Source: Candidatus Accumulibacter necessarius (GTDB lineage: Bacteria > Pseudomonadota > Gammaproteobacteria > Burkholderiales > Rhodocyclaceae). From it: DNA of 46,784 bases. The stretch is from the NCBI GenBank assembly GCA_017302435.1, contig JAFLDL010000038.1:1-46784 (forward strand). The letters run 5' to 3'. A program made the position numbers and the translations under genes. Below, in pieces: positions 3,779-45,506 of this stretch. How positions within the stretch are numbered: the stretch's first letter is position 1; every line of letters starts with the position of its first letter. The notes below the pieces were generated by a model. The model was not told where the DNA came from and ran no database searches. It was given only the letters and a program-made list of their open reading frames with translations.

Positions 3779-4045
3779 CTACAATCCGGCAGGCTTTTCG
3801 ATTGAGTTCGCAATGGTTCGCAACACCCCGCAGCGCTTCGATTCCCTACTTTCAGTAGTCGTTGGGTGCGAGGCGCTGCCGCACCACCAATATCGAAACC
3901 CCAACCGTTCTCGGTCGGGGTTTCTTCTTGCCTGATCGCGCCGGTTTCCGGGTACTCGTGCGGGTTCCTGCGAACGACTGAGCTTGCGCGCGAACCCCTC
4001 GAAGCGCTTGGCCAGCTTGATGGCCGCTGTTGGCACTTCGATCAT
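3779..4045 (-). pseudogene. Phage lysozyme/endolysin, N-terminal fragment
   Basis: The frame opens MIEVPTAAIKLAKRFEGF, the typical start of T4-type phage lysozymes in which the Glu of RFEGF is the catalytic acid. After about 20 residues the similarity ends and the sequence runs through the hairpin at 3895-3924, so the remainder of the enzyme is lost. Its ATG overlaps the stop of the holin-like gene (ATGA), the normal lysis-cassette arrangement. It is a prophage relic without activity. Confidence 0.6.
3895..3930 (+). terminator. Strong GC-rich hairpin resembling an intrinsic terminator
   Basis: GAAACCCC (3895-3902) and ACCG (3904-3907) pair with CGGT (3912-3915) and GGGGTTTC (3917-3924) around a TTCT loop, with one A/C mismatch. 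It is followed on the plus strand by TTCTT. The shape is that of a Rho-independent terminator, although the T-tract is weak and no plus-strand gene is recognised upstream. Confidence 0.55.
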
Positions 4046-4269
4046 GGCCGCTCCTCATCGAACACGCGCCCGAGGAACCAGAAATTCAGCGCCCCGGCCC
4101 ACTGCACCTGATCGGCCTCCGTCCAGGCGTGCAGGATGGCAGTGCCCCAGCCAGCGCCAGTGGTTGCGGCCGTCGCGAACGCGGCCGTCTTGGCCGCGTA
4201 GTACAAGGCCATGAACCAGTAGGTGATGACTGGGCGAACGCTGCAGGACATTGCGTCGGCCCAGCGCAC
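4042..4269 (-). pseudogene. Phage holin-like protein, probably N-terminally truncated
   Basis: The 75 residues resemble the C-terminal part of putative three-helix phage holins: RPVITYWFMALYYAAKT, an alanine-rich helix, then TEADQVQWAGALNFWFLG and a charged end RVFDEERP. Full-length members are longer, and the sequence before the chosen start does not continue the family. The stop codon overlaps the lysozyme start by four bases. The two together are the remnant of a phage lysis module read on the minus strand. Confidence 0.6.
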
Positions 4270-4303
4270 GCCGGTTTTCTCGCCCTGAGTGCGGACCAGT
4301 CTT

Positions 4304-4352
4304 GCAGTCTTGGGGTCACTTGCAGTCTTGGGGTCACAGTCTTGGGGTCAGG
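4304..4352 (+). repeat. Three tandem copies of a 14-17 bp unit at a MITE edge
   Basis: The unit CAGTCTTGGGGTCA (first copy preceded by G, second by TG) occurs in tandem at about 4304-4320, 4321-4337 and, lacking its first base, 4338-4352. The last copy runs into the left terminal repeat of the element at 4344-4471, so the array is a serial duplication of its end plus flank. Confidence 0.75.
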
Positions 4353-4471
4353 TCTTTCTTCTTTCCCGTGATGGAGCAAGAACATGCAGCTCATTCGCTC
4401 TCAGCCCAACCCGAGGCAAATAGCAAGACCGCGCTGATGGTTCTCCGAGGAAAAAAGAAAGATCTGACCCC
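4344..4471. mobile_element. 128-bp MITE-like element with 23-bp terminal inverted repeats
   Basis: The left end 4344-4366 (starting GGGGTCAGGTCTTTC) and the right end 4449-4471 (ending GATCTGACCCC) are inverted copies matching at 21 of 23 positions. The interior of about 80 bases has no coding potential. This is the structure of a non-autonomous miniature element mobilised in trans. No clear target-site duplication was identified because the left flank is rearranged by the tandem repeat. Confidence 0.7.
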
Positions 4472-5005
4472 ATGCTGCCTGAGAGGCGTGACCATCTGAT
4501 ACCTGGAATCCTGCGGGCAGACAATCCATCTCAGCCAACGGCCAGTTTGGTGATTGGACAGGATCTCAGTCTGTAGTCGGTTTTGGTGCTCTTTTCCGTG
4601 GGGCCGAAGAAGGCAAAGACGGCAAGCAGTCAAATAGGCGTTCTGCATAGACGAACCCCATTCGTCTGACCGCGCCCTGATCGAAATACAGCAGCCAAGC
4701 GGCAAGTAGCGCCAGCGAAATGAGCAGGGTCAAGCCTGCGGCGAGCCCCCGAACAGCACAATGCACAGGGTCAAGACGGGCATGGAGGTAGACATCGAAC
4801 CCCCTCGCCTGCTGAGCGCGATGCACCCGCATTTCGTCAACTCTGGGGTCGACCAGGACAGATCGCCAACGACCTCTTCCGGCGACCACAGCCCGAGGCG
4901 CTGAAAGCCATGCCGCTCGGTGCCCCCCGGGATCTTGTGCCGGACCAGGGCGTTCGGGTACATACTGGCGGCCAGCCGCACGATACTGCCGCCCGCCACC
5001 TCCGG
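4472..5005. other. Stretch without a recognised gene
   Basis: Several minus-strand frames of 75-105 codons exist. One (about 4820-4999) contains a protein-like stretch, SMYPNALVRHKIPGG and LGLWSPEEVVGD, and another (about 4600-4750) has a hydrophobic segment LTLLISLALLAAWLLYF. Neither could be assigned to a family and they are in different frames, so the region may be an old gene broken by frameshifts. Confidence 0.35.
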
Positions 5006-6922
5006 TCAGCTCTCGAGCGCTTCCCAGCGCTCGAGCAGGGCCAGCAGCTGGTCATCGATTTCGCCCAGGCGCGCCGACAGCCTCTGGGCTTCCTGAGGCT
5101 CCGCCTGGTACAAGGCCGGATCGGCCAGGCGTTCGGCAATCACCTTCTGTTCCGCTTCGAGGGCCGTGATGCGCTGCGGCAGTTCGGCCAGCTCGTGCGT
5201 CTCCTTCCACGACAGCTTGCCGCCCACAGTCGCTTTCTGCCGACCCGGCTTTGCCGCCTCTGCCGGGCGCTGGTCACCACGCTTGCCTGCGCCCGCTGGT
5301 GGCGTTTCTTCCTTGCGCCGAGCGGCCTGATAGTCGGCCCAGTCCTGATAGCCGCCGGCGTATTCGCGCCAGCAGCCGTCGCCTTCGGCAGCAATCGTCT
5401 GGGTCACGACGTTGTCGATGAAGGCGCGGTCGTGGCTGACAAGGAACAGCGTACCGCTGTAATCCTGCAGCAGTTCCTCGAGTAGCTCGAGCGTCTCGAT
5501 GTCGAGGTCGTTGGTCGGCTCGTCAAGCACCAGCACGTTGGCCGGGCGCGCCAGCAGGCGCGCCAGCAGCAGGCGGTTGCGCTCACCGCCGGACAGCGAA
5601 CTGACCAGCGAACGCGCGCGCTGCGGGGCAAACAGGAAATCACCGAGGTAACTGATCACGTGCTTCTTCTGGCTGCCGATCTCGACGAAATCCGATCCCG
5701 GCGAGATGACATCGATCAGCGTCGCCTGTTCATCGAGTTGGCTCCGGAACTGGTCGAAATAGGCGACCTGTACCTTGGTCCCGAGCGCCACCCTGCCCTT
5801 GTCCGGCGCCAGTTCACCGAGGATCAGGCGGAGCAGCGTCGTCTTGCCGGCACCGTTGGCGCCGATGATGCCGATCTTGTCCCCGCGCTGGATACGACAG
5901 GAGAAGTCGCGCACCACGACCTTGTCGCCGAAACACTTGCTGACGTTCTCCAGCGAGGCCACCACCTTGCCGCTTCGGTCGCCGGCATCGACCGCCAGCT
6001 CGACCTTTCCCTGTCGCTCCCGCCTTGCCGCCCGCTCCCGGCGCAGACGTTCGAGCCGCAGCACGCGGCCCTCGTTGCGTGTCCGGCGGGCCTTGATTCC
6101 CTGCCTGATCCACACTTCCTCCTGGGCGAGAAACTTGTCCGAACGGGCGTTATTCAGGGCCTCGTCGTGCAGCATCGCCTCCTTGCGGGCCTGATACTCG
6201 CTGAAGCTGCCCGGACAGGAAAGCAGGCTGCCGCGGTCCAGTTCGACGATGCGGGTGGCGACGCGTTCGAGAAAGCGGCGATCGTGGGTGATGAACACCA
6301 GCGTCACGCCCGAGCTGACGAGCATCTCTTCCAGCCACTCGATGGCTGCGACATCAAGGTGGTTGGTCGGCTCGTCGAGCAGCAACAGCTCGGGTGAAAT
6401 CGCCAGTGCCTGGGCCAGCGCGAGGCGCTTCTTCTGGCCGCCCGACAGGGTGCCGACCAGGCTGTCGGCATCGAGCGAGAAGCGCTGAATGACGCGCTCG
6501 GCCTGCGCCTCGAACGACCACGCCTGCCGCGATTCGAGTTCCGTCTGCAACGCGTGCATGCGCTCAAGCAGTCTTTCCTGCTCGGCACCGGGCTCCCCGA
6601 GTGCGTGCGACACCGCATGGTACTCGGCCAGCAAGGCCGACAACTCGCCCATGCCAGCCACGACAGCCTCGAAAACCGTCAGATCGGGGTCAAACGGCGG
6701 CTCCTGGGGAACGTAACCGATGCGCAGGCCCGGCTGCAGCCAGACCTTGCCATCGTCGAGCCCACCACAACCGGCGAGCGCGCTCAATAGCGAGGACTTG
6801 CCGGTGCCGTTGCGGCCGATCAGCGCCACCCTTTCGCCAGCGTCGAGCTGGAAATCCGCATGGTCAAGCAGCGGCACGTGGCCAAAAGCCAGCGAGGCGT
6901 CAGAGAGAATCAGGTACGGCAT
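5006..6922 (-). CDS. uup: ABC-F family ATPase Uup
   Basis: 638 residues with two ABC domains and no membrane segments. Domain 1 has Walker A GRNGTGKSS, signature LSGGQKKRLALAQAL and Walker B LLLLDEPTNHLD; domain 2 has GANGAGKTT, LSGGERNRLLLARLL and VLVLDEPTNDLD. The linker is Arg-rich, as in ABC-F proteins that contact the ribosome, and the last ~90 residues form the coiled-coil extension typical of Uup. Uup affects branch migration, transposon excision and ribosome function in E. coli. The ATG at 6922 (MPYLILSDASLAFGH) is chosen over an upstream ATG because it matches the family start. Confidence 0.95.
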   Translation of the reverse strand: MPYLILSDASLAFGHVPLLDHADFQLDAGERVALIGRNGTGKSSLLSALAGCGGLDDGKVWLQPGLRIGYVPQEPPFDPDLTVFEAVVAGMGELSALLAEYHAVSHALGEPGAEQERLLERMHALQTELESRQAWSFEAQAERVIQRFSLDADSLVGTLSGGQKKRLALAQALAISPELLLLDEPTNHLDVAAIEWLEEMLVSSGVTLVFITHDRRFLERVATRIVELDRGSLLSCPGSFSEYQARKEAMLHDEALNNARSDKFLAQEEVWIRQGIKARRTRNEGRVLRLERLRRERAARRERQGKVELAVDAGDRSGKVVASLENVSKCFGDKVVVRDFSCRIQRGDKIGIIGANGAGKTTLLRLILGELAPDKGRVALGTKVQVAYFDQFRSQLDEQATLIDVISPGSDFVEIGSQKKHVISYLGDFLFAPQRARSLVSSLSGGERNRLLLARLLARPANVLVLDEPTNDLDIETLELLEELLQDYSGTLFLVSHDRAFIDNVVTQTIAAEGDGCWREYAGGYQDWADYQAARRKEETPPAGAGKRGDQRPAEAAKPGRQKATVGGKLSWKETHELAELPQRITALEAEQKVIAERLADPALYQAEPQEAQRLSARLGEIDDQLLALLERWEALES

Positions 6923-7132
6923 GGGCGTTGTCGCTTCCGTGGAGGTGGGTAACGTCGACGGCTGCACGCGCCGCGAGCGCCGGCCGCTGCTTGCCTGCGG
7001 CCGCAGGGCGCGATTCTACCGCGGCTGGCGAAGCGCCAGAGGCCCAATGCGAGAGCATCGGAGCGATGGCCGCGGGTTACCAGGCAAATGCCGAGGCGAA
7101 TGCCCGGGCAGCGCCGTCTCAGCCGCGTTGAA

Positions 7133-7162
7133 TTGGCGCAATTCGGGGGCAGCGGCTACAAT
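7133..7162 (+). promoter_or_regulatory. Sigma-70 promoter for tRNA-Arg
   Basis: TTGGCG (7133-7138) and TACAAT (7157-7162) are separated by 18 bases and lie just upstream of the tRNA. The GC-rich run after the -10 box is typical of stable-RNA promoters. Confidence 0.65.
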
Positions 7163-7172
7163 ACGCGCCCGA

Positions 7173-7244
7173 CTCCTCGTAGCACAATGGACAGTGCACA
7201 CGCCTCCTAAGCGTGGGATACAGGTTCGATTCCTGTCGAGGGGA
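7173..7244 (+). tRNA. tRNA-Arg (anticodon CCT)
   Basis: A full cloverleaf folds: acceptor CTCCTCG (7173-7179) with CGAGGGG (7237-7243), including one T/G pair; D-stem GCAC/GTGC; anticodon stem CACGC/GCGTG around loop CTCCTAA, giving anticodon CCT; T-stem ACAGG/CCTGT with loop TTCGATT. The discriminator is A and CCA is not encoded, so it must be added by the nucleotidyltransferase. It reads the rare AGG arginine codon. Confidence 0.93.
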
Positions 7245-7596
7245 CTTTCCGGGAGTCCGGCAGGGTCCGCCGCAATCCAAAACCCCAATGTATTCAGATG
7301 ATCGGCCTTTCCTTCCCACTCACGGCCAAAGCCGACAAAGCGCCGTGTAGGCACCAGCCGCTTTTGCGGAACTGGATTGTTCTTTCACAAAAACAGATGC
7401 TTAAAGCGTAGTTGCGTCTACTGGCTAGAGGAAGATCCGTCGGTGAGCGGCCTCGTGGAAGTGACGGGCGTGGCCCCAGTTTCACGATGGCGGATGTCGC
7501 GCTGGAATCGGCCCAGGGCGCGTCCCAGCTTGCCAAGGGAAGAAAAGGCAATTCCTGGACTCTTGGCAGTAGACTGACTCTTTGTCCGCTGAGTTG
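7245..7596. other. tRNA to tag spacer
   Basis: No gene recognised. Only unsupported short frames are present and no clear terminator for the tRNA was found. Confidence 0.5.
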
Positions 7597-8178
7597 ATGT
7601 CGATGGAACGTTGCCCTTGGTGCGAAGGTTTTGACCTTTACCGTGAATACCATGATTCCGAATGGGGCGTACCGCTCTACGATGATCGGTCGCTTTTTGA
7701 GTTGCTGATCCTGGAAGGAGCGCAGGCCGGTTTGTCTTGGGCGACGATCCTGAAAAAAAGAGAAAACTATCGGCGTGCTTTCGATGGTTTCGATCCTGTC
7801 AAGATTGCCGAGTATGACGACGCAAGAGTTGCAGCACTGTTGGCAGATTCGGGGATCGTCCGAAATCGCGCCAAGGTTGCCGCAGCCATCCAGAACGCCA
7901 AAGCGTACCTGGCTCTCACAGACGATGGACAGTCGTTCAGCGCTTTTCTTTGGCGCTTCGTTGATGACTTACCGATTCAGAATCAATGGACTTCAATGGC
8001 AGAGGTACCGGCCAGGACGACACGGTCGGACGCTATGAGTAAGGCTTTGGGTCGAGCCGGGTTCAAGTTCGTTGGTTCGACGATTTGCTATGCGTTAATG
8101 CAGTCGGCTGGCATGGTTAACGACCATCTGACCACGTGCCCGCGTCACGGAGAAGTCAAAGGTCGCTTGCGCAGGTGA
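7597..8178 (+). CDS. tag: DNA-3-methyladenine glycosylase I
   Basis: 193 residues covering the whole Tag family. The zinc site is visible as Cys in ERCPW, His in EYHDSEWG, and the His and Cys of NDHLTTCPRH. The LILEGAQAGLSW segment carries the helix that faces the lesion. The enzyme excises 3-methyladenine from alkylated DNA in base excision repair. ATG at 7597 is chosen; the next in-frame ATG at 7603 is equally possible and there is no strong ribosome binding site for either. It stands alone between the tRNA and a phage fragment. Confidence 0.95.
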   Translation: MSMERCPWCEGFDLYREYHDSEWGVPLYDDRSLFELLILEGAQAGLSWATILKKRENYRRAFDGFDPVKIAEYDDARVAALLADSGIVRNRAKVAAAIQNAKAYLALTDDGQSFSAFLWRFVDDLPIQNQWTSMAEVPARTTRSDAMSKALGRAGFKFVGSTICYALMQSAGMVNDHLTTCPRHGEVKGRLRR

Positions 8179-26800: not shown

Positions 26801-27464
26801 CAGGCCGTGCCAAACCAACCGAGTTGCTGAAACCTGTTCACGCTGACCTCCACGAAACAATTCTGACGCGTTGTTGTCCGCCTGACAATCGCGGTTTTGA
26901 TCCCGACAACAGCGCATGGTTCAACCGCCGCTTCCATGGGAAGCTGGCCATGCCTGCCGCACAGCCGTCGCCGTCGTTGGTCACGCCAGCCTTCACCCCT
27001 GCCCCTTGACCGGCTACGGTCGAATTGCGGGGGGATGCTTCGGGGCGATCGAGGAAGCGCCCGCTTGGACGGGGGCGCCGTGCGCTGCTACAATCCCAAT
27101 ACTGGAATGAGTGGCTTCGATGAGCGGCTTCGTCTTCACTGCGTTGCTTCGGCGCAGGATCACCTCGGCAGCGGGCAGGCCATTCGGCTGGCTCGCAATA
27201 CACTCTACCAGTCTGCTCCGGAGAACCACCCCGCGCGTCGGAGTCGACGGACGGGGAACTGGCTCCGATCAGGGCGGGGGGCAATCGGGCTGGAGTTGGC
27301 TCAGAGGCGGGGCCAATGGTGAGGGAAAGGGTGTCGAGAGTGCCGTGCACTCGCGTTAAACCTGCTCAGTGTGCTGGTCAGGGGCTTGCCTGCATGTGCC
27401 TGCAGCGATGGCCCTTGCGCGGAGTGGCAGCGCTCTCGAGGGTGGTCTTGATGAGCAGATTTCC
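26801..27464. other. Long divergent spacer before glgX-treZ
   Basis: No established gene. A 71-codon plus-strand frame from 27107 (MSGFDERLRLHCVASAQDHL) begins about six bases after the predicted start of the promoter at 27065-27094 but has no ribosome binding site. The remaining DNA likely holds the control region of the glycogen operon. Confidence 0.5.
27065..27094 (+). promoter_or_regulatory. Sigma-70 promoter upstream of glgX-treZ
   Basis: TTGGAC (27065-27070) and TACAAT (27089-27094) with an 18-base spacer. It lies 370 bases before the glgX start, leaving a long leader or an intervening small transcript. Confidence 0.5.
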
Positions 27465-30400
27465 ATGTCCAAAGCGCTGACGGCGATCTGGCCGGGCAAG
27501 CCATATCCCCTGGGCGCCACCTGGGACGGTGAAGGGGTCAATTTCGCGCTGTTCGCAGAGCACGCGGACAAGGTCGAATTGTGCCTGTTCGACGGCAGCG
27601 GCCGACAGGAACAGCAGCGCATCGAGCTGGGCGAGCAAACCGACCAGGTCTGGCATGCGTATCTGCCCGAAGTGCGTCCGGGCCAATTGTACGGCTACCG
27701 GGTCCATGGTCCCTATCGACCGGAGGAGGGACACCGGTTCAATCCGCACAAGCTGCTGCTGGATCCCTACGCCAAAGCGATTGTCGGCGCCGTCGATTGG
27801 AGCGATGCCCAGTTCGGTTACCGTATAGGCAGCCCCCGGGAGGATTTGAGCTTCAGCCGCCGCGACAGCGCGCCCGGCATGTTCAAGTGCCAGGTGGTCG
27901 ATCCCGGTTTCGATTGGGCCGGGGACCGCCCGCCCAATGTTCCCTGGCATCAGACCGTCATATATGAGCTGCACGTCAAGGGCTTCACCCGCCTGCACCC
28001 GCATATTCCGCCCGAAATGCGCGGCACCTATGCCGGGCTGAGTACGCCGCCGGTCATCGACCACCTCAAGCGCCTGGGCGTGACCGCGGTGGAGTTCCTG
28101 CCAATACAGACTTTCGTCGACGACCGTCATCTGCTCGACCGAGGACTGAAAAACTACTGGGGCTACAATTCCATCGGCTACTTCGCCCCCGATCCGCGCT
28201 ATTCGGCCAGCGGTCGTCTCGACGAATTCAAGCACCTAGTCAGGACCCTGCACGCCGCCGGTATCGAGGTCATCATGGATGTGGTCTACAACCACACCGC
28301 CGAGGGCAACCATCTGGGGCCGACGCTGTGTTTCCGGGGCATTGACAACGCCGCCTATTATCGGCTGGTGGCGGACGCTCCCCGCTACTACATGGACTAC
28401 ACCGGCTGCGGCAATACCTTGAATATGATGCATCCCCGGGTATTGCAACTGATCATGGACAGCCTGCGATACTGGGTCATCGAGATGCACGTCGATGGTT
28501 TTCGCTTCGATCTGGCAGCCGCCCTGGCCAGGGAGCTGCACGAAGTGGATCAGCTCGGCGCCTTCATGGACATCATTCACCAGGACCCGGTGCTGTCGCA
28601 GGTGAAGCTGATTGCCGAGCCCTGGGACCTGGGGGACGGCGGCTATCAGGTGGGCAACTTTCCGGTCGGCTGGACCGAGTGGAATGGCAAGTATCGAGAC
28701 GTCGTGCGCGATTACTGGCGCGGCGAGGGGGGCCTGATGGGCCAACTGGCCTACCGTCTCACCGGTTCCAGCGATCTGTACCAGCACAGTGGCCGCCGAC
28801 CCTACGCCAGCATCAATTTCATCACCGCGCATGATGGCTTTACGCTCTACGATCTGGTCAGCCATAACGACAAGCACAATGCGGCCAATGGCGAAGACAA
28901 CCGCGATGGCGACGCGCACAACCGCAGCTGGAACTGCGGCGCCGAGGGCGAGACCACTGACCCCGAGGTGCTGCGGCTGAGACGGCGACAGCAACGCAAT
29001 CTGCTGGCGACGCTGCTGCTCTCGCAGGGCGTGCCGATGCTGCTGGCGGGCGACGAAATGGGACGCACCCAGCGCGGCAACAACAACGCCTATTGTCAGG
29101 ACAACGAACTGAGCTGGGTGAATTGGGATCTGGCCTCGACGTCGGACAACCAGGATCTCTTCGAATTCACCCGTCGCCTGGTCGAGTTGCGCAAGAAGCA
29201 TCCGGCGCTACGGCGGCGGCACTTCTTTCAGGGGCAGCGCATCCGCGGCGCAGGCGTCAGGGACATCATCTGGCTGCATCCGGACGCAGGCGAGATCAGT
29301 GATCAAGACTGGGATCACCATCATGCCCGCTGCTTCGGCCTGTACCTGGTCGGCGAGGCTCTGGAAGAGCAGGATGAACGCGGCCAATGGGCCAGGGACG
29401 ACGATTTCCTGCTGCTGCTGAATGGCCATCACGAGGCGATTCGCTTCACACTGCCGTGGAAGGGGGATTGCGAACTGGTGCTGGATACCGCCCTGGCCGA
29501 AGGCGGCAAGCTGCGGCAGGTCAGCGACCAGTCTTATGGCTTGGCGGGCCGTTCGCTGGCGCTGCTGACCCAGCGGCGCCAGGCGGGCCGGGTAGCGGAG
29601 CCGCTACTGCGCCGGCGCTATTTCATGCCCTTCGGTGCGCAAGTGCTGGAAGGTGGACGGGTCCGCTTTCGCCTGTGGGCGCCAGCGGCCGAACGGGTAG
29701 ACGTGTCGCTGCAAAAAGCGGGGGGTCACACCATCCTCCTGCCGATGGAATCCAGGGAAGCGGGCTGGTACGAATTGACCAGCGACCTGGCGACGGTGAA
29801 CGATCTCTATCGCTATCGGATCGATGGCTTTGGCGAAGTCCCCGATCCAGCCTCCCGTTACAATCCCCAGGGCGTACATGGCCCCAGTCAGGTCATCGAG
29901 CCGGGTCAGTTCGCCTGGAACGACCGCAGTTGGCGGGGCCGGCCCTGGGAGGAAGCGATCATCTATCAGTTGCATGTCGGCGCTTTTACTCCGCAGGGTA
30001 CCTTCGCGGCGGTCAGGGAACGACTGGATTACCTGGTGGAACTGGGCGTCACCGCGATTCAACTGCTGCCGGTCGGTGCCTTTGCCGGGGCGCATAACTG
30101 GGGTTACGACGGCGTGCTGCCATTTGCCCCCGCGGCCAGCTATGGCCATCCGGACGAGCTGAAAGATCTGGTCCAGACCGCCCACCGCAAGGGACTGATG
30201 GTCCTGCTTGATGTCGCCTGTCACTACTTCGGGCCCGAGGGCAATTACCTTTCGGGTTACGCGCCGGCGTTCTTCGCCCGTCGCGCGACTGATCTCGCCG
30301 GCAGGAGCATCGACCTCACGTTGGCAGTCGCAAGCGAGTTCTTCATCCACAATGCGCTGTACTGGTTGGAGGAGTTCCATCTCGATGGCCTGCGCCTGAA

Positions 30401-31394
30401 TGCGGCACTGCTGCAGGAAGATGCGGGTGAGCTCGATCTGCTGGAAGCGCTCGCCGACGCTGTCCGTGAAGGGCCGGGCAAACACCGCCATTGCCACTTG
30501 CTACTGGGTCATGATCAGCGGGCTGCCCGCTATCTCCACTGGAATGATCACAGTGCTCCGCGCCGCTATGAAGCCGTGTGGAATGACGGCGCCCAGCAGG
30601 CCATGCAGGAATTGTTGACCGCCGCACCGGCCGGCGCGGTCGATACCGCCCGGCCGCTCGACCAGCTCGGCGCCTGCCTGAGCAGGGGGTTTGCCGGCAG
30701 CGGGTCAGATCGCCTGCTGCCCACCGCTTACGTGACCTTCCTGCAGGACTATGCGCGTATCGGCGACCGCGCACGCGGCGAACGTCTCCACCAGTTGACT
30801 TCACCACGGCCACTTGGTGCCATGATCGCGACCTCACTGTTGGCGCCCATGCCGCCGGCGCTGTTCATGGGTGAAGAGTTCGCCGCCGCCCAGCCGTTCC
30901 TTTATTTCTGCGACTTCAACCCAGACCTGGTGAAGAACATTGCGATCAACCGGCGCCAGTCCTTTGCTCATCAGCAGGGGTTTCGCACGACCAGGACGCG
31001 GGCACGCATTCCAGACCCCACTGAGCCGGCCACTTTTCAGCGCTGCAAGCTGGACTGGACGAGCGTTAGCCGGTCACCGCATGCTGACTGGCTGAGCTTT
31101 TACCGCCGCCTGCTGGCCGTTCGCCGCCGGGAAATCTGTCCCCGGTTGGCTGGCATGCATGAGGAAGCCGTTCGGTATACCCTGGTCGGAGGGCGAGGCT
31201 TATCGATCCGGTGGACGCTGGGCGACGACTCAGTACTGACCCTGTTGGCAAACTACAGCGGGGTTCCGCTGGAGGGACTGCAACGGCCGGTCGGTGCAGT
31301 CCTCTGGGCCGAGCCAGGCGAAGCCGATCACGCGCTGACGCAAGGACGGCTGCTGCCATGGTCGGTAGTGTGGTTGCTGCGGGGTGCCGCTTGA
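27465..31394 (+). CDS. glgX: Glycogen debranching enzyme GlgX fused to an inactive TreZ-like domain
   Basis: 1309 residues, about twice the usual GlgX. Residues 1-~710 are isoamylase-type GlgX: an N-terminal beta domain ([20 protein letters not shown]) and a GH13 barrel with nucleophile D349 (GFRFDLA), acid/base E385 (IAEPWD) and D457 (TAHDGF). Residues ~715-1309 match malto-oligosyltrehalose trehalohydrolase (TreZ) throughout ([46 protein letters not shown]). In this half the three catalytic positions are N979 (DGLRLNA), H1016 (LLLGHDQ) and A1097 (LQDYARIG) instead of Asp, Glu and Asp. The N-terminal half should debranch glycogen; the C-terminal half probably binds glucan. ATG 27465 is chosen by family start; the frame is open further upstream. 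Confidence 0.92.
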
Positions 31395-31473: not shown

Positions 31474-33645
31474 ATGAGAGAAGCGAAGTTGAATGACGAA
31501 CTGATCCGAATCGCCGAGGCTCGCCACCACGATCCGTTTGCGGTGCTGGGAAGGCATCCTTGCGCTGGAGGAGTCCTGGTGCGGGCTTACATCCCGCACG
31601 CGACGGAAGTTTCCATCGTCGAAGGCAATTTGCCGCTGGAACGTATTCCGGATTCCGACTTTTTCGAGTGGCAGGGTTCCGGCAAGAACCTTCCGGAACA
31701 CTATCGCCTGATCTGGCGTGATACCTGGCATCACGACCATATTGCCCACGATCCTTATAGCTACCTGCCGCAGATAGCGGATTTCGATCTGCACCTGCTC
31801 GGCGAAGGCAGACATAGCCACGCCTATAATTTCCTGGGGGCAAACGAACATGAGATTGACGGCGTCGCTGGCATCCTGTTTGCCGTCTGGGCACCCAACG
31901 CCGAGCGTGTGAGCGTCCTGGGGGACTTCAACCACTGGGACGGTCGTCGCCACCCGATGCGCGTGCGTCCGGGGAGCGGCGTATGGGAGCTGTTCCTTCC
32001 CGACATCGCCCCCGGCATCCTCTATCGCTTCGAGATCAGGAACCGGAACAGCGGCGAGGTGCTTACCAAATCAGATCCCTACGGCCGACGCTTCGAGATG
32101 CGGCCGGGAAATGCATCGATTGTCGCTCCGCGCTCGACCTACGTCTGGCAGGACACCGCCTGGATGGAGCGGCGCGCCGCAGCTGACTGGCAGCATGCGC
32201 CGATGTCCACCTATGAGGTCCATCTCGGCTCCTGGCAGCGTGGGTACGAAGGGGAATTTCTCAACTACCGCGAGCTGGCCAGACAACTGGTCGAGTATGT
32301 AACCCGGATGGGCTTCACGCATATTGAACTCCTGCCGATCACCGAGCATCCGTTCGATCAGTCGTGGGGCTACCAGGTCACCGGCTATTTCGCACCGACC
32401 AGCCGTTTTGGCACACCGGACGACTTTCGCTATTTCGTGGATCTCTGCCACCAGAACGATATTGGCGTGCTGCTTGACTGGGTTCCCGCCCATTTCCCCA
32501 AGGATGCCCATGCGCTGGCGCGGTTCGACGGCACGGCGCTCTACGAGCATGAGGATCCACGCAAGGGCGAACATTTGGACTGGTCGACGCTGATCTTCAA
32601 TTTCGGCCGCAACGAGGTAAAGAACTTCCTGATTTCCAGCGCCGTTTATTGGCTTGACGAGTTCCACATCGACGGCTTGCGGGTCGACGCCGTCGCTTCC
32701 ATGCTCTATCTCGACTATTCGCGCACCGAATGGGTACCCAACCAATACGGCGGCCGGGAAAACATCGAAGCGATCGAGTTCCTGCGCCAACTAAACGCCA
32801 CAACCCACACCGAGGCGCCCGGCACGTTGGTCATCGCCGAGGAATCGACATCCTGGCCACAGGTGACGCGCCCGACCTACATTGGCGGACTGGGTTTCGA
32901 CATCAAGTGGAATATGGGCTGGATGAACGATACCCTGCGCTACATGGGACAGGAACCGATCTACCGCCAGTACCATCATGACCTGCTCACCTTCAGCATG
33001 CTCTATGCGTTTTCAGAGAACTTCATGCTGCCTTTCTCGCACGACGAAGTGGTGCATGGCAAGGGCTCGATGATCAACCGCATGCCTGGAGACGAATGGC
33101 AGCGTTTCGCCAATCTCCGACTGCTCTACACCTACATGTTCACTCATCCGGGGAAGAAGCTCCTGTTCATGGGCACCGAGTTCGGTCAGGGTCTCGAGTG
33201 GAACAGCGCGGGGGTCCTCGACTGGTATGTCCTCGACTTTCCTTTGCATGCCGGGATGCAAACCCTGGTCAAGGATCTCAATCACCTGTATCGCGGCTCG
33301 TCCGCCCTGCATGGCAACGAGTTCGACTGGCAGGGATTCGAGTGGATCGATTGCCACGATTCCCAGCAGTCGATCCTGAGCTTTGTCCGCAAGACCGACG
33401 ACGAATTCGTGGTGGTGATCATCAACTTCACCCCCGTGCCGCGCATGGATTACCGCATTGGCGTGCCGCAACCGGGCAGCTATCGAGAGATCCTCAACTC
33501 GGATTCGCATTTCTACGGCGGTGGCGACGTGGGCAATGGCGATGGCCCGCTTGTCGCCGAGGAAATACCCTGGATGAACCGCCCGTATTCATTGTCCGTT
33601 ACGGTGCCGCCGCTTGCCGGCCTTGTCCTGGCGCTGCGGGGCTGA
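31474..33645 (+). CDS. glgB: 1,4-alpha-glucan branching enzyme
   Basis: 723 residues, normal for bacterial GlgB. Two N-terminal beta domains ([30 protein letters not shown]) precede the GH13 barrel with nucleophile D405 (DGLRVDAV), acid/base E456 (VIAEEST) and the transition-state Asp in [12 protein letters not shown], then a C-terminal beta domain. It makes alpha-1,6 branches in glycogen. A strong ribosome binding site (GGAAGGAA) precedes the ATG, 79 bases after the GlgX fusion, so synthesis and debranching genes are probably one operon. Confidence 0.97.
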
Positions 33646-34388: not shown

Positions 34389-36413
34389 TCATTGCTTGTT
34401 CTTGATGGCCTGCGTTTCGTTCACGATCGGAAGTTCCAGACGGGCAGCCCATTCGGTCCATCCGGCATCGTACCAGCGGACATTTGCATATCCCAGCAGG
34501 CGCTTCAATACAAAGTAGGTCTGGCTGGCCTGATGACCTGTACGGCAGTGCACGATGACCAGCGTATCTTTGGCGGGGATGATCTGGCTGTAGGCTGCGG
34601 CCAAGGCTGCGGTCGGCTTGAATGAAACGACTTTGTCGGGACCTGTCACCAGGTCCTCCGTGAACGGGCGGCTGATCGCGCCAGGAATATGGCCGGCACG
34701 GGCCTCGTCGGTCTTTTTGCCCGAATAGAAGTCCGCCGGACGGACGTCGATAACCACGACGCCCGGCTTGCCAAGTTGGGCGAGCACCATTTTGAAATCC
34801 ACGGTGAAGTCATCCGCTTTCTTGTCCACTGGGTATTTCGATTCGGTTACGACGGGCAACACCGCATCGGATGGCCGACTTTCCTGCGCCCATTTCGCGT
34901 ACCCGCCGTTCATAACTGCGTAATTCAGGTGCCCCAGCCGCTCAAACGCCATGGCGGCCAAAGTGGTGTCATATAGTTTGTCGCCGGAGACCAGAACGAT
35001 GCTGTCGGTGCCCTTCAACCCGAGCAGAGAGAGCTGGGCGGCGAGCATGGCGGGTGGCAGAAGCATGGAAGGTACGCCACCGATGTTGCCGCGAAAGCTC
35101 TCAAGATTGACGCTGAGGGAGCCCGGAATGTGTGCGGTGTTGTATTCCGGCTGCGGGCGCAGATCGATGATCTTGAGACCGGGGGTGCCAATCATCGACG
35201 CCAGCGAATGGGTCTCGACGGCCCGAGGCATGGCGACATGAACCGGCGCTGTGGCGACGTCGGACTTGGAAATGGCAGGCCCGGTGAAGAAGGCTCGCCA
35301 AGCGTTGACCCGCGCGGCGTCGGCCATTGACAACGGTTCAGTCCGTAACGAGACAGGCTTGAGGCAACGATCCTGGAAGCCCCGCAGGCCATCCGTCAGC
35401 AGGTAGACGTTATCGAAACCCTGGCGCTGGAGCGAGTCTCGTGCCTGGGCGGGATGTGTCATCCCGTTGGAATAGAGCACGATCAGACCCCTGTTCTTTT
35501 GGAGTTTAAGCGTTTCCGCCAATTCGGCGAGTGGCACGTTGATGGCTCCGCGAATGTGGAATACCTTGAATTCTGCTGCTGGCCGCACGTCAACGATCAC
35601 CAGATCCGGCTCGCCGGCCATCAGGCGGTCGGCGATGTCTTCGGGCTCAATATGGTCCTGCCCCTTCTCGATCCGTCCCATCAGAGTTTTCTCGACGACG
35701 GGGGGTACGATGGACGCGGCTTTCTCACCCGCCTCGGAGGGGGCAGGGCTTAGTACGAACAAACCACCCGCCAAAACTACGAGGGCCAGGCTGAAAGCCT
35801 TTAGAAACGGCGACCCCCTGTACGGTGCGCGGCCCGTACGCACCTTTTCGACCCACTCGACCAGCCAGAAGGCAGCCACGGCCATCAGGGTGAATGCGAG
35901 GATGAACCCGTTGCGCGACATACCCACGGAGGTGTAGGCCATCAACGTCCCTTGATCCCCTGCCGTGTAGAGCACCTGGATTACGGAGAAGAACTCGTTG
36001 AACAGGATGCTGCCGCCCACGACGCCAAGCAGGAATACAAGCGCGTCGATCCGGCCGGCAGCCAGTCCGACCGCTGCCGTGCCTGGGCACCAGCCGCCCA
36101 TGACAAATCCGACGCCGAACAGTAGCCCGCCAACGATCTGGGCACCGTAGATGGTGGGCATGAGGAAGATCTGATCAAGCTGGATCCAACCGAAACCCAC
36201 CAAATACGACAATCCCAGCATCGCAGTGATGAGCGCGGAGAACATCACCTTCACTACAGCCATGTCGGTGAAGTAGAAGACGCCGGCCAAGCGGCGCGAA
36301 CTGCTGAATCCGGCCCGCTCGAGTGTGAAGCCAAAACCACAACCGAGCAACAGGGCCAGGAAAAAGGCTCGGGAAGTGCCCAGCGCATCGAGGCTATAGA
36401 GGGTGTCAATCAT
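34389..36413 (-). CDS. YeeE/TsuA-type transporter half fused to three rhodanese domains
   Basis: 674 residues. Residues 1-~225 form six to seven membrane helices of the YeeE/YedE family with conserved cysteines C25 (LLGCGFGFTLERAGF) and C109 (GGWCPGTAAVGLAAGR). Three rhodanese domains follow: ~255-350, ~398-510 and ~535-662. Only the third has the catalytic loop (HCRTGHQA, C623); the first has Ser at that place (LYSNGMTHP, S315) and the second also Ser (LVSGDKLYD, S476). TsuA transports thiosulfate; the fused rhodanese would accept its sulfane sulfur. The start overlaps the preceding YeeE gene by eight bases. Confidence 0.88.
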   Translation of the reverse strand: MIDTLYSLDALGTSRAFFLALLLGCGFGFTLERAGFSSSRRLAGVFYFTDMAVVKVMFSALITAMLGLSYLVGFGWIQLDQIFLMPTIYGAQIVGGLLFGVGFVMGGWCPGTAAVGLAAGRIDALVFLLGVVGGSILFNEFFSVIQVLYTAGDQGTLMAYTSVGMSRNGFILAFTLMAVAAFWLVEWVEKVRTGRAPYRGSPFLKAFSLALVVLAGGLFVLSPAPSEAGEKAASIVPPVVEKTLMGRIEKGQDHIEPEDIADRLMAGEPDLVIVDVRPAAEFKVFHIRGAINVPLAELAETLKLQKNRGLIVLYSNGMTHPAQARDSLQRQGFDNVYLLTDGLRGFQDRCLKPVSLRTEPLSMADAARVNAWRAFFTGPAISKSDVATAPVHVAMPRAVETHSLASMIGTPGLKIIDLRPQPEYNTAHIPGSLSVNLESFRGNIGGVPSMLLPPAMLAAQLSLLGLKGTDSIVLVSGDKLYDTTLAAMAFERLGHLNYAVMNGGYAKWAQESRPSDAVLPVVTESKYPVDKKADDFTVDFKMVLAQLGKPGVVVIDVRPADFYSGKKTDEARAGHIPGAISRPFTEDLVTGPDKVVSFKPTAALAAAYSQIIPAKDTLVIVHCRTGHQASQTYFVLKRLLGYANVRWYDAGWTEWAARLELPIVNETQAIKNKQ

Positions 36414-36939
36414 GCCATTGCTTCCTTACAAACCAAGCCGCTGCGTAGCCGCTGGCAAAAAGACAAACCAGAAACACGAAACTACCGGAGAGGAGCAGCG
36501 CGCCGCCACTCAGTGCCTGACCAGAGGTGCAACCCTGGGCCAAGCGGCTGGCGAAGCCTACGAGCACGCCGCCCGCAAGGGCGTACCCGAGTCGCCGACC
36601 CACGGATGTAGTGGCGCCGCGTTCAACCTGAATGCGTGCTCGGTTCGCCAAAAGTGCCGAGAAAAGCCCTCCGACAAGGGTACCCACAAACATGAAGACG
36701 AGGTAATAGTGCAGCGGATTCGCCCCCCATTTTCCAAAATACTCGCTGCTCAGCGTGTGAGAGGGCGCGACACTCATGGAGAGCGCGGCACCGACGCGTG
36801 CAATGCCGCCCGAAGCGCCCAGCCCGGCGCCAAGAATTGCGTATGAGGCCAAGAGCACCAGCCCAAGCAGAACCCCCACAAGATAGGGATTCCCGTAGGG
36901 TTCAGGCTCGACGTGATGATGGTCGGTTCCGGGAGTCAT
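36406..36939 (-). CDS. YeeE/YedE-type transporter, N-terminal half
   Basis: 177 residues with about four membrane helices. It carries the motif RLAQGCTSGQALSGGALLLS (C136), which is the N-repeat counterpart of GGWCPGTA in the next gene. Together the two proteins make the full pseudosymmetric transporter that is a single polypeptide in TsuA. It starts two bases after the rhodanese-fold gene. A His-rich N-terminus (DHHHVEPEP) precedes helix 1. Confidence 0.85.
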   Translation of the reverse strand: MTPGTDHHHVEPEPYGNPYLVGVLLGLVLLASYAILGAGLGASGGIARVGAALSMSVAPSHTLSSEYFGKWGANPLHYYLVFMFVGTLVGGLFSALLANRARIQVERGATTSVGRRLGYALAGGVLVGFASRLAQGCTSGQALSGGALLLSGSFVFLVCLFASGYAAAWFVRKQWHD

Positions 36940-36941
36940 GA

Positions 36942-37493
36942 TCAGCAGCCAGCGCTTTTCTTCGTCGATGTTCCACGGGCGGCCGGCGCCGGTGCTGCCG
37001 GTGCTGCCGGGCTCGCCATAGACGTTACGGGAACAGCGGGTTTGATGGAGTTAACAGAAGCCGGAGCCACCGCAGGCAAGAGCGCCGCGGAATCGTTCCA
37101 ATAGGCTTCCATTCCGCCGTAGAGGACCCTGATCGACCGCCGAGTCTTCTGGGAGAGAATGCCGCCGACTGCCATCGCCAGTGAGCCGTCGCGGTCCACG
37201 ATTATCAAAGGAACTACGCCGTTGCGATAAACCGGGTTGGCGATTACATCCTTGATGGTCGCATTGACCGAGCCCGGCAGGCTTAAGTCCGCATAGGAAG
37301 CCCGCGGGCGCACGTCCACTATCTCGAACGTGCCGGGAAGATCAATCATCATGAGTTTGAGTTCTGTTGCGGTAATGCGCTGCGGCAGTGTGACGGACTG
37401 CGCGGCGGACTCGGCCAGTGCCGCTGTTGTAACGATCGTTGCGACTATTAGTGTTGCCGCGCGCAGGCTGTTGGGAAGGGTCAGGTATTTCAT
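36942..37493 (-). CDS. Periplasmic rhodanese-fold protein with C-terminal cysteine
   Basis: 183 residues. A signal peptide (about 1-29, ending TTAALAESA) precedes a rhodanese fold: FEIVDVRPRASYADLSLPGS and LIIVDRDGSLAMAVGGIL, where the catalytic Cys is replaced by Asp/Arg. A 45-residue Ala/Pro/Ser linker leads to KKSAGC-stop. C183 is the only cysteine in the protein. By analogy with swinging-arm carriers it may hold sulfur on its tail and present it to the transporter; this is inference. ATG 37493 with AAAGGAG seven bases upstream is clear. First gene of the cassette. Confidence 0.85.
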   Translation of the reverse strand: MKYLTLPNSLRAATLIVATIVTTAALAESAAQSVTLPQRITATELKLMMIDLPGTFEIVDVRPRASYADLSLPGSVNATIKDVIANPVYRNGVVPLIIVDRDGSLAMAVGGILSQKTRRSIRVLYGGMEAYWNDSAALLPAVAPASVNSIKPAVPVTSMASPAAPAAPAPAARGTSTKKSAGC

Positions 37494-38091
37494 CGCCAAA
37501 CTCCTTTCGGCGCTGGATAAACGCTGGATAAATGCATGCTCCCGTTACTGGCCGCAGCTGATCGTCTTTACTCTTATAGCTTCAAACGCTCTCATCGTCT
37601 GTGCGCTACCGAACTGCATGCTTTCAGGACCTGTTGTTGCGCGAAATTCACAAAAGAGTAGATTCGTGTTAATTCGCGCCTCGATAAGGCCATTCGGCGG
37701 TGGGCGTGAACGGTTACCATTCATCTGGTGCCGCAACTGCGACAACGTAAAGTACATGCGGCGGCGCACCGGGCTCTGGTTGCCCAGCGGGCGGTGCTCG
37801 GCGATGCTGTGCCAGGGGTTGTCGGAGAGTCGCTTGAAAAGTGCATTTGCGCGGGGGAATCAAAGCTCTGACGCAGGATGCGCAGCTTGGCCACCGACAC
37901 GAGCGGTGAAAGCGCGTCGAGGCCACGCGGTGTTGCTCACGCGCCTGCGCATCGAAGCCCAGCGTGCGTTTGAGCCACGACACGAGGCCCGGCTCGCCAA
38001 TGGGCAAATCGGCATTATCCGGGTTGAGCTGAATCCCGCAGGGTCCCAGGCCAGCCACCGGCGCGAACAAGCCGTCGCATTGACGAGGTCC
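37494..38091. other. Spacer between the sulfur cassette and the peptidase gene
   Basis: Open frames up to about 130 codons exist on both strands, but none shows family features or a good ribosome binding site. The part near the cassette should hold its promoter; no boxes could be assigned with confidence. Confidence 0.4.
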
Positions 38092-39032: not shown

Positions 39033-40301
39033 ATGACCACCATTGGCCTGGCCGGGGCGGGAACCATCGGTTCCGGCCTGATCCGCCTCCTGAACACCTC
39101 TCCGGCCGCCCGGAACCTGCGGCTCAAGGCCGTACTGGTCCGCGACCTTGCCAGGCCCAGACCCGGAATCCCCGCCGGAGCCCGATTGACCGCGCGCTGC
39201 GAGGATCTGACCGACGATCCCGAGATCGATATCGTGGTTGAACTGCTGGGAGGCGTCGATGAGGCATTTGAGGTCGTCAGCCGGGCCCTTTCGCAGGGCA
39301 AGGCCGTAGTCACGGCCAACAAGAATCTGCTGGCCGAACGGGGCCCCGAGCTCTTTGCCCTGGCCGCCAGGCACCAGGCCCCGGTAGGATTCGAAGCCAG
39401 CGTCTGCGCCGGTATCCCGGTCATCCGGACCCTTCAGGAAGCCCTTCGGGCCGACCGGATCACGTCCCTGGAAGGAATCGTCAACGGGACGACCAACTAT
39501 CTGCTCACCCGGATGAGCGAGGAACGTGCTTCGTACCAGGAGTGCCTGGCCGACGCCCAGCGGCTGGGGTTTGCCGAACCCGACCCCGACTACGATGTTT
39601 CCGGGAAGGATGCGGTCTGCAAGGCCGGCATTCTGGCCACGCTTGCCTTCGGGACCTACGTCGACTTCCGGCGGATTCCCGCCTCGGGCATCGACACCCT
39701 GGAGCTGGAAGACGTCCGCCAGGCTGAAGCCATGGGTTACCGGATCAAGCTGGTCGCTGCCGCCAGGCGGTCTGCCGACGGCCGGCTTGACGCCGAGGTG
39801 GCCGCGGTCCTGCTGCCGGTGGACCACCCCCTGGCCTCGATCCGCATGGAGTACAACGCCGTGCTCATCGAGGGCGACGGCCTGGGGAAGATCCTTCTCT
39901 CGGGGAAAGGGGCCGGACCTGCGCCGACCTCCGTGAGCCTGCTGGCCGACTTGCTCGACATCGCCGAGGGCCGAGGCCGGATTCCCGGTGCGGACCACCC
40001 GTTCATCGCTGGCGTGTCTGACCTCGGCAACCACCAATCCGCTCCGTCCCGGTACTATCTGAGACTGTCGGTCCCCGACCGGTCAGGTACCCTGGCCCTG
40101 GTCGCCGGACTTTTCGCTCAGCACGACATCAGTATCGCCTCGGTCCTCCAGCCCGAGATACCCGACACCGCCGGCAGCGCTCTTGTGCCCCTCATCCTGA
40201 CCACGCACAGCACGACCCGCGGGCGCCTCGACCTGGTCCTGGCCGCTCTGGCCACCGCAGGCTGGAGGCGGAGTGTCGTGCTGCGTATCCAGGATGACTG
40301 A
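39033..40301 (+). CDS. hom: Homoserine dehydrogenase
   Basis: 422 residues: Rossmann NAD(P) motif GLAGAGTIGSGLI, NKNLLAERG with the catalytic-site Lys, EGIVNGTTNYLLTRMSE and the substrate region DPDYDVSGKDAVCKAGILA, then a C-terminal ACT domain (YYLRLSVPDRSGTLALVAG) that in this family mediates threonine inhibition. It reduces aspartate semialdehyde to homoserine in Thr/Met synthesis. A ribosome binding site (AAGAAAGGA) precedes the ATG. No partner thrC or aspartate kinase gene lies next to it. Confidence 0.95.
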   Translation: MTTIGLAGAGTIGSGLIRLLNTSPAARNLRLKAVLVRDLARPRPGIPAGARLTARCEDLTDDPEIDIVVELLGGVDEAFEVVSRALSQGKAVVTANKNLLAERGPELFALAARHQAPVGFEASVCAGIPVIRTLQEALRADRITSLEGIVNGTTNYLLTRMSEERASYQECLADAQRLGFAEPDPDYDVSGKDAVCKAGILATLAFGTYVDFRRIPASGIDTLELEDVRQAEAMGYRIKLVAAARRSADGRLDAEVAAVLLPVDHPLASIRMEYNAVLIEGDGLGKILLSGKGAGPAPTSVSLLADLLDIAEGRGRIPGADHPFIAGVSDLGNHQSAPSRYYLRLSVPDRSGTLALVAGLFAQHDISIASVLQPEIPDTAGSALVPLILTTHSTTRGRLDLVLAALATAGWRRSVVLRIQDD

Positions 40302-44510: not shown

Positions 44511-45506
44511 ATGGCCCTATTTCGCTGCAACAAATGTGCACATCTGCAAGAGCAACCCGATGAACAGATTGGAGCGACCATCGCCTGTCCCAGGTGCGCC
44601 CATCCGACACAGGTTTACCCGACCCTCTTCTTCGTTGGCCGGCTACTCGACAAATACTTTGACGCCCAGCGCGAGATCATTCGTCTCAAGGCGCCGCCGG
44701 GTGCGAACCCGACTCTACCGTCGGTCGCGGCAGCTCCCTCCGCACCACCCACTGCCATCGATCTGTCAAACACCGCCCACCTGACCAGCGAACAACAGCA
44801 CGAACCCATTGCTGAATGGTTCAGGCGCAAGCACATCGTGATCCAGATCGACAGCCAGGCAGTCGACACGACGGGCTTTTTCGACGAGGTGGCAATGAGC
44901 ATCGGCGGCAACCTGCCGGTGTTGAAGGATGTGCTGAATCGTATCCGCGGCGCGCAGCAGCGGGCATATTCGAGCACGGTCATCGGATTCGATGGAAAGT
45001 CCCCAGAGGACGTGCGAGCCATTACGTCCTTCTGCCAGCAACTCTACGATTTTTCTTTTGTCGCCAAGGCGATTCCCAACCGACAGAAAAACAATCTCCT
45101 GTTGGCTCTGCAGCCGGCGGCAGCGATCCGGCATTTCTTCAACGGTGAGTGGCTGGAGTGGTTCGCGTTGATGACCTGCCTGGAGTACAGCCGGGAGCGC
45201 AAGAAGGGTTTCTCCTGCGCCCGCAAGCTGGGCCTGACGCTGAGCAATGAGGAACGGCACGAACTCGACGTTTTCATGCTGATCGACGGCCAGTTGCCGA
45301 TCGTCATCGAATGCAAGAGCGGCGAGTTCCGCCAGGACATCGACAAGTACCTCACCGTGCGCAAGCGCCTTGGCCTCAACGGCAAGAACATCGTGCTGTG
45401 CATCGCCGACCTTCCCGACGAACACGCCAAGGGACTGACCGCCATGTACGATCTTACCTTCGTCAGTGAGCGCGGCCTGTTGTCCCATTTGAGCAGTCTG
45501 TTCTGA
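44511..45506 (+). CDS. Zinc-ribbon protein with PD-(D/E)XK nuclease domain
   Basis: 331 residues. The N-terminus has a zinc ribbon with C6/C9 and C26/C29 (RCNKC and ACPRC). A linker rich in Pro/Ala (60-85) leads to a domain beginning EWFRRKHIVIQIDSQAVDTT. The C-terminal part (about 205-331) has a nuclease core: GEWLEWFAL (E213/E216), HELDVFMLIDG (D253) and IVIECKSG (E267-x-K269), in the D-x13-ExK spacing of restriction-like nucleases and DUF1887/Card1-type proteins. Which nucleic acid it cuts is unknown. It stands alone; no CRISPR or methylase gene is near. Confidence 0.75.
   Translation: MALFRCNKCAHLQEQPDEQIGATIACPRCAHPTQVYPTLFFVGRLLDKYFDAQREIIRLKAPPGANPTLPSVAAAPSAPPTAIDLSNTAHLTSEQQHEPIAEWFRRKHIVIQIDSQAVDTTGFFDEVAMSIGGNLPVLKDVLNRIRGAQQRAYSSTVIGFDGKSPEDVRAITSFCQQLYDFSFVAKAIPNRQKNNLLLALQPAAAIRHFFNGEWLEWFALMTCLEYSRERKKGFSCARKLGLTLSNEERHELDVFMLIDGQLPIVIECKSGEFRQDIDKYLTVRKRLGLNGKNIVLCIADLPDEHAKGLTAMYDLTFVSERGLLSHLSSLF

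Follow-up and report, generated by a model that had tools for sequence, protein, structure and literature searches.

We found that Candidatus Accumulibacter necessarius encodes, in one open reading frame, a debranching enzyme of the GlgX type whose catalytic residues are intact, joined to a trehalohydrolase (TreZ) domain in which all three catalytic residues have been replaced. Judged from its sequence and its predicted fold, this second half is most likely a pseudoenzyme, that is, a non-catalytic, glucan-handling or structural part of the debranching enzyme. The loss of catalytic residues and of a loop near a catalytic motif, the purifying selection acting on the domain and its occurrence in species that lack TreY are supported by the results below. 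We lean modestly towards the view that the TreZ-derived pseudoenzyme is retained as a permanent non-catalytic part of GlgX, including the role in glucan handling or assembly that we propose for it.

The gene lies in a stretch of 46,784 nucleotides that was analysed as a whole and is called the window here. The locus comprises the following features.

27369..31394, + strand: fused GlgX-pseudo-TreZ open reading frame, uninterrupted, 1341 residues from a GTG start
27465..29570, + strand: GlgX half with intact catalytic residues, 1154 bits with TIGR02100, CBM_48 at residues 47-135
29571..29618, + strand: linker between the halves, residues 735-750, conserved among fused copies
29610..31391, + strand: pseudo-TreZ half, residues 748-1341
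31474..33645, + strand: glgB, branching enzyme, starting 79 nt 3' of the fused frame

Residues are numbered from the GTG start; the original prediction was numbered from an alternative ATG at 27465, which gives 1309 residues, and its numbers are lower by 32. Its central reading, an in-frame fusion of GlgX with a full-length TreZ domain, was borne out by one open reading frame with profile matches to both enzymes. The GlgX profile TIGR02100 (NCBIfam) scored 1154 bits (cut-off 640.9) and matched best over residues 43-734; the TreZ profile TIGR02402 matched best over residues 765-1295. The TreZ domain alone scored 508.0 bits, below the TIGR02402 cut-off of 538.8, while the whole fused protein reached 629.8 bits with two stretches counted. 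The half was homologous to TreZ along its full length, and in the profile searches no family other than those of GH13 type matched it at E <= 0.001. A frameshift or assembly artefact was ruled out, because the identical fused frame and the conserved linker recur in other assemblies, including the single-contig genomes G304 and G312. Over the TreZ half, the closest named relatives were Candidatus Accumulibacter conexus (90%), iunctus (88%) and adjunctus (83%). The glgB gene also lies directly downstream of the fusion in genomes G302, G305, G308, G312 and G319, and was absent from the examined stretches downstream of it in G304, G306 and G310. One 3.3 kb contig labelled Methylococcaceae bacterium OWC_0087 (L049) was 94% identical to the window's fused gene where covered; it is probably Accumulibacter DNA binned into the wrong genome.

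Several other genes were observed in the window. A homoserine dehydrogenase with an ACT domain is encoded at 39033-40298 (+). At E <= 1e-100 it matched only seven of the 28 genus genomes, counting its own, with 73-79% identity in the remaining six; the gene may be accessory or acquired by transfer, and its matches were too few for a marker of species relationships. The protein encoded at 44511-45503 (+) has a weak Card1-like endonuclease domain (PF09002, 26.8 bits, cut-off 26.4); Card1-like endonucleases are a type of CRISPR accessory nuclease. The membrane part of a sulphur transporter and three rhodanese stretches share a single open reading frame at 34389-36413 (-), the adjoining 36406-36939 (-) matches the other part of the same sulphur transporter profile, and a further rhodanese is encoded at 36942-37499, beside these sulphur-transport frames.

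We compared the TreZ half with TreZ proteins in alignments and with phmmer, and the following altered sites were identified.

30219..30227, + strand: GH13 region I, YNH changed to CHY at residues 951-953 (TreZ alignments)
30399..30401, + strand: nucleophile column, Asp to Asn, N1011 (TreZ alignments, phmmer)
30507..30509, + strand: acid/base column, Glu to Gly, G1047 (TreZ alignments, phmmer)
30576..30608, + strand: family motif QWNDDxHHAxH altered, with V1070, G1074, Q1076, Q1077 and Q1080
30690..30719, + strand: point at which 11/11 fused copies lack a 14-residue loop that most live TreZ have
30753..30755, + strand: column of the third catalytic Asp, Asp to Ala, A1129; the preceding His is Tyr in the window

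The nucleophile and acid/base columns were identified from structure titles naming D252 and E283, and the last column holds what we take to be the third catalytic Asp. In the alignment, each of the 129 other TreZ rows (100 in its first version; some genomes are present in two collections) reads D, E and D in the three columns, as do 34/34 further TreZ rows from partly overlapping loci. Among the fused rows, the Glu and the third Asp were gone in 13/13 and the nucleophile in 12/13, since L044 retains the Asp; the rows excluded from this alignment gave a concordant result. The replacements vary between copies, with Ser at the nucleophile in L047, at the Glu column in L050 and at the third Asp in L045 and L046. 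Around the Glu column, the alignment places GHDQR in the window where its relatives have ENDxN, so that H1048, the residue after the Glu column, stands where the family has Asn, and D1049 is an ordinary family residue two positions past the Glu. In phmmer comparisons with Sulfolobus TreZ (3vge, D252S; 3vgg, E283Q), residue 252 aligned to N1011 and residue 283 was placed as an insertion between G1047 and H1048, while the Glu of Deinococcus TreZ aligned to H1048. Because neither residue 1047 nor residue 1048 is acidic, the Glu is lost in every reading. Displacement of the catalytic residues to neighbouring positions, which would have overturned the loss, was excluded by both the alignment with other TreZ rows and phmmer. 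The predicted loss of all three residues therefore stands, with N979 and A1097 of the original prediction being N1011 and A1129, but the acid/base column had been misplaced by one residue: it is G1047, not H1016 (H1048 here).

The changes extend beyond the catalytic residues. Other TreZ rows have 118 columns with an invariance of 97% or more; 25 of these were changed in the window and 15 in every one of the 13 fused rows. Among the 15 are family V950, Y951 and N952 of region I, W977, the Glu, N1051, five residues of one motif (Q1070, D1074, H1076, H1077 and H1080) and the third Asp. The stretch that contains the deleted loop, before region IV, holds 35-36 residues in 51 of 52 live rows and 24 in the other one, against 22 in 11/11 fused copies. 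The TreZ half should no longer free trehalose.

The catalytic residues of the GlgX half, in contrast to those of the TreZ half, were found intact in the alignment of fused rows.

28509..28511, + strand: GlgX nucleophile D381, intact
28617..28619, + strand: GlgX acid/base E417, intact
28833..28835, + strand: GlgX third Asp D489, intact

All three, predicted earlier as D349, E385 and D457, were retained in each of the 16 fused rows that cover the GlgX part (17 rows in all, some being one genome present in two collections). With a score above the TIGR02100 cut-off and the catalytic Asp, Glu and Asp present, this half qualifies as GlgX.

We then surveyed 28 genomes of the genus: ten carried the fused dead domain, nine a separate intact treZ and nine neither, the last including G314 and G315, which are only 72% and 87% complete. 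In the fused genome G326 a contig end cuts the locus, leaving 171 in-frame residues ahead of the TreZ half. The separate TreZ proteins of the genus matched at 48-49% identity. TreY scored over its cut-off in 9/9 genomes with separate TreZ and in 0/19 of the others, among them the ten fused genomes. TreS was over its cut-off in 9/9 genomes with separate TreZ and in one of the ten fused genomes (G308); partial matches below the cut-off, of 266-274 bits, were detected in fused G302, G305, G312 and G319 and also in G318. No OtsA was found in any of the 28 genomes at E <= 1e-20. In the genome of the window itself, TreY did not exceed its cut-off, a second TreZ was not found, and neither TreS (at E <= 1e-40) nor OtsA (at E <= 1e-20) was matched, which agrees with the earlier expectation that a normal trehalose route is not present. 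As for debranching, a high-scoring GlgX type (1068 bits or more) occurred in 17 genomes, each with fused or separate TreZ; contig ends cut the locus in the remaining two of the 19 TreZ-bearing genomes (G301 and G326), and the nine genomes without TreZ gave weaker GlgX matches only. Every one of the 28 genomes has at least one GlgX, and the fused GlgX may not be the main debranching enzyme in the genome of the window, because this genome encodes a second one.

The TreZ half was predicted to adopt a complete TreZ fold (pLDDT 87), with TreZ as the best family model and the best structures. A model of residues 142-1341 (1200 residues) had a pLDDT of 59.3 and a pTM of 0.50, values too poor to show how the two halves pack. 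We propose that the dead half uses its CBM48-type N-terminal part, the remodelled groove of the barrel and its C-terminal part to bind or position alpha-glucan chains, or else keeps the GlgX half in its working assembly. GlgX would thereby change which branches it cuts or how long it resides on glycogen, in the way proposed for noncatalytic ISA2 acting on ISA1 in plants. Binding of maltodextrin ends or glycogen and guidance of debranching, as first suggested for this domain, is a possibility drawn from the retained fold, the CBM48-type part and the ISA1/ISA2 parallel. CBM48-type domains are common in GH13 proteins and do not necessarily bind glucan, and the groove may bind none, because the catalytic centre has lost residues that are invariant in the family.

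A purely structural partner, with no glucan binding and a role only in the stability or oligomerisation of GlgX, is a possible though rather unlikely explanation. Here the folding or assembly of GlgX would have come to need the TreZ body after the fusion, so that the body was kept. This would fit the retention of 93 of the 118 family-invariant columns in the window, 83 of these 93 being invariant across 11 fused copies, together with the divergence of the stretch that holds the catalytic motifs; oligomers are also known for GlgX-type enzymes. It sits less well with 23 derived residues that never vary within the fused set, a number of them in the old catalytic motifs (950, 951, 1070, 1076, 1077 and 1080), which hint at a new function of the pocket, although shared ancestry explains these residues equally well.

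Selection on the fused gene was then estimated. ML omega was 0.150 for pseudo-TreZ, 0.086 for its GlgX half, 0.071 for live TreZ of the sister set and 0.061 for GlgX of the sister set, and the corresponding NG86 medians were 0.163, 0.112, 0.113 and 0.124. With an ML omega roughly double the live TreZ value, pseudo-TreZ is under weaker constraint. In relative-rate comparisons, the TreZ half was farther from 23/23 third sequences than either L052 or L100, while the GlgX half was farther in 20/23 (by about 1 point) when compared with L052 and in 0/23 when compared with L100. The excess divergence of the TreZ half amounted to 12.5 points in the barrel, 1.2 in the N-terminal part and -4.5 in the C-terminal part, and was concentrated in residues 946-1143, the stretch with the catalytic motifs. 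The description of the domain as otherwise well conserved consequently holds for the N- and C-terminal parts, which are about as conserved as in live TreZ, but not for residues 946-1143, which are strongly diverged, nor for the 14-residue loop.

The raised omega, the loop deletion, a long stem of 0.80 substitutions per site and the lack of a glgX1-treZ locus match in nine of the 28 genomes (two of them the incomplete ones named above) might suggest that the TreZ half is a decaying remnant, a passenger awaiting removal. This reading is already disfavoured, and we regard it as improbable: omega was 0.138-0.161 in each of three sub-domains, far below 1, the divergence falls mostly within one stretch, and no truncation or internal stop was found among the fused copies read to their end. 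Furthermore, fused copies only about 74-77% identical in the TreZ half still have the domain (18 of 55 pairs listed). From sequence and model, then, the dead half does not resemble a remnant in decay. The search for relaxed selection or truncation in relatives leaves the original proposal of a maintained non-enzymatic part in place, supported by the ML omega, the conserved fusion and the complete predicted fold.

Another explanation is a different ligand or activity in a rebuilt pocket (C951, H952, Q1076, Q1077 and Q1080), for example a sensor of sugar phosphate or nucleotide, and the conservation of the derived residues through the fused set in the old catalytic motifs would be consistent with it. 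We consider it very improbable, given that the GH13 acidic residues are gone, that the TreZ half matched GH13-type families only at E <= 0.001 and that shared ancestry may account for the conservation. That the half is still a trehalohydrolase using non-standard residues is barely credible: L044 retains the nucleophile Asp and D1049 is acidic, but the Glu and the third Asp are missing in every fused row aligned, D1049 is an ordinary residue of the family, and TreY, which makes the substrate, is absent from all ten fused genomes.

As to the origin of the pseudoenzyme fusion, we inferred that it arose from a neighbouring glgX-treZ gene pair. The two genes overlap as an ATGA stop/start in eight of the nine genus genomes with separate genes and are adjacent in the ninth, and fusion from such an overlapping pair would need both a frame change and loss of the stop. 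The gene order treS/mak - glgC - glgX - treZ - malQ/treY is common to G300 and Nitrosomonas aestuarii. A separate glgX adjoins treZ in 40 non-Accumulibacter loci with near-complete glgX, none of which carries an in-frame fusion. Six of the further long frames around TreZ in 300 order, 199 family and 398 phylum genomes were also checked and none was a GlgX-TreZ fusion, as five have glgX and treZ in different frames and L250 has no glgX match beside treZ. The sole other GlgX-TreZ fusion found was in Tistrella mobilis (L171, pTM1, 3850-7779), where it is annotated as GlgX only. In the comparison of fusions called for by the original prediction, the Accumulibacter copies lack the Glu and the third Asp and the Tistrella copy keeps D, E and D. 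Long TreZ frames of another kind, of about 1880-1995 residues, were observed in Azospirillum (L172, L106, L109, L115, L116 and L118), with about 550-650 extra residues before TreZ and 720-742 after it, and with intact catalytic residues; in A. ramasamyi, treY lies downstream of the long TreZ frame.

In the trees, both fused halves fell beside a group including Nitrosomonas aestuarii and Marinimicrobium, not with the separate pair of the genus, at weak support (0.27 for TreZ and 0.67 for GlgX; FastTree only, with the long TreZ stem). Descent from the genus's own separate glgX-treZ operon is not supported by this weakly supported placement, and the fused locus may have been transferred, because its halves group outside that pair. 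On the tree of the second GlgX, the fused genomes did not form one group (four changes against a minimum of one), so losses or transfers within the genus are likely.

Accumulibacter is important in wastewater phosphorus removal and lives by rapid glycogen cycling. Direct comparison is possible between close species, some with live glgX and treZ as separate genes, some with the fused dead version and some with neither. The trehalose route is likely confined to the species with the intact set, as the ten fused genomes lack TreY and their TreZ is dead. This bears on gene inference. A 2020 paper describes trehalose as an osmolyte in Ca. Accumulibacter phosphatis and infers treX, treY and treZ by BLASTp against 59 metagenomes at E < 1e-40 (PMC7778627). 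In our phmmer comparison the fused protein matched Deinococcus TreZ at E 4e-86, so a BLAST or family-model search would label it TreZ, and gene presence by the E < 1e-40 test cannot separate live from dead TreZ. The trehalose measured in that study is not in question.

In searches of open-licence PMC papers, no title or abstract reported a dead TreZ or a GlgX-TreZ fusion. We compared the protein with four known systems. Compared with TreZ itself, maltooligosyltrehalose trehalohydrolase (reference structures 1eh9, 3vgb and 2bhu, and also 3m07, labelled putative alpha amylase), the domain here has Asn, Gly and Ala in place of the catalytic Asp, Glu and Asp, lacks the loop, is fused to GlgX, scores on its own under the family cut-off and resides in a genome without TreY. 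The GlgA-GlgB fusion of Waddliaceae and Criblamydiaceae is likewise a fusion of two glycogen enzymes with a non-functional C-terminal one, a loss that the authors ascribe to the presence of the N-terminal domain, with pathway genes seen as disappearing (PMC7935935); in our case substitutions have removed the catalytic residues, and purifying selection acts on the domain. The Tistrella mobilis pTM1 fusion (WP_014747292.1) has the same domain order, with 56% identity in the GlgX half and 40% in the TreZ half, but its TreZ catalytic residues are intact, treY lies on the same plasmid and it is far away in both trees. It shows that fusion can coexist with a live-looking TreZ and is presumably a separate, bifunctional enzyme, as far as its residues tell.

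The closest working parallel to the fused protein appears to be plant ISA1/ISA2, in which a catalytically dead partner is likewise conserved alongside a live debranching enzyme. According to one study, at least four of five conserved residues of ISA2 were lost in every protein its authors examined and its rate of change was raised, and removing ISA2 from lines with inactive ISA1 further shifted the balance between soluble glucan and starch (PMC12510319). ISA2 (structures 9xvi and 9xvv) is an isoamylase paralog of GH13_11 on a separate chain, whereas the dead partner here is TreZ-derived, falls outside GH13_11 by its best family model and structures, and is covalently joined; the two would be comparable in manner of working only. 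Accumulibacter thus offers a bacterial case for the plant question of why a debranching enzyme retains a dead partner. That it independently evolved a counterpart of ISA1/ISA2, a debrancher with a covalent dead GH13 partner drawn from the trehalose pathway that alters glycogen debranching, is a tentative proposal, to which we give somewhat less than even weight.
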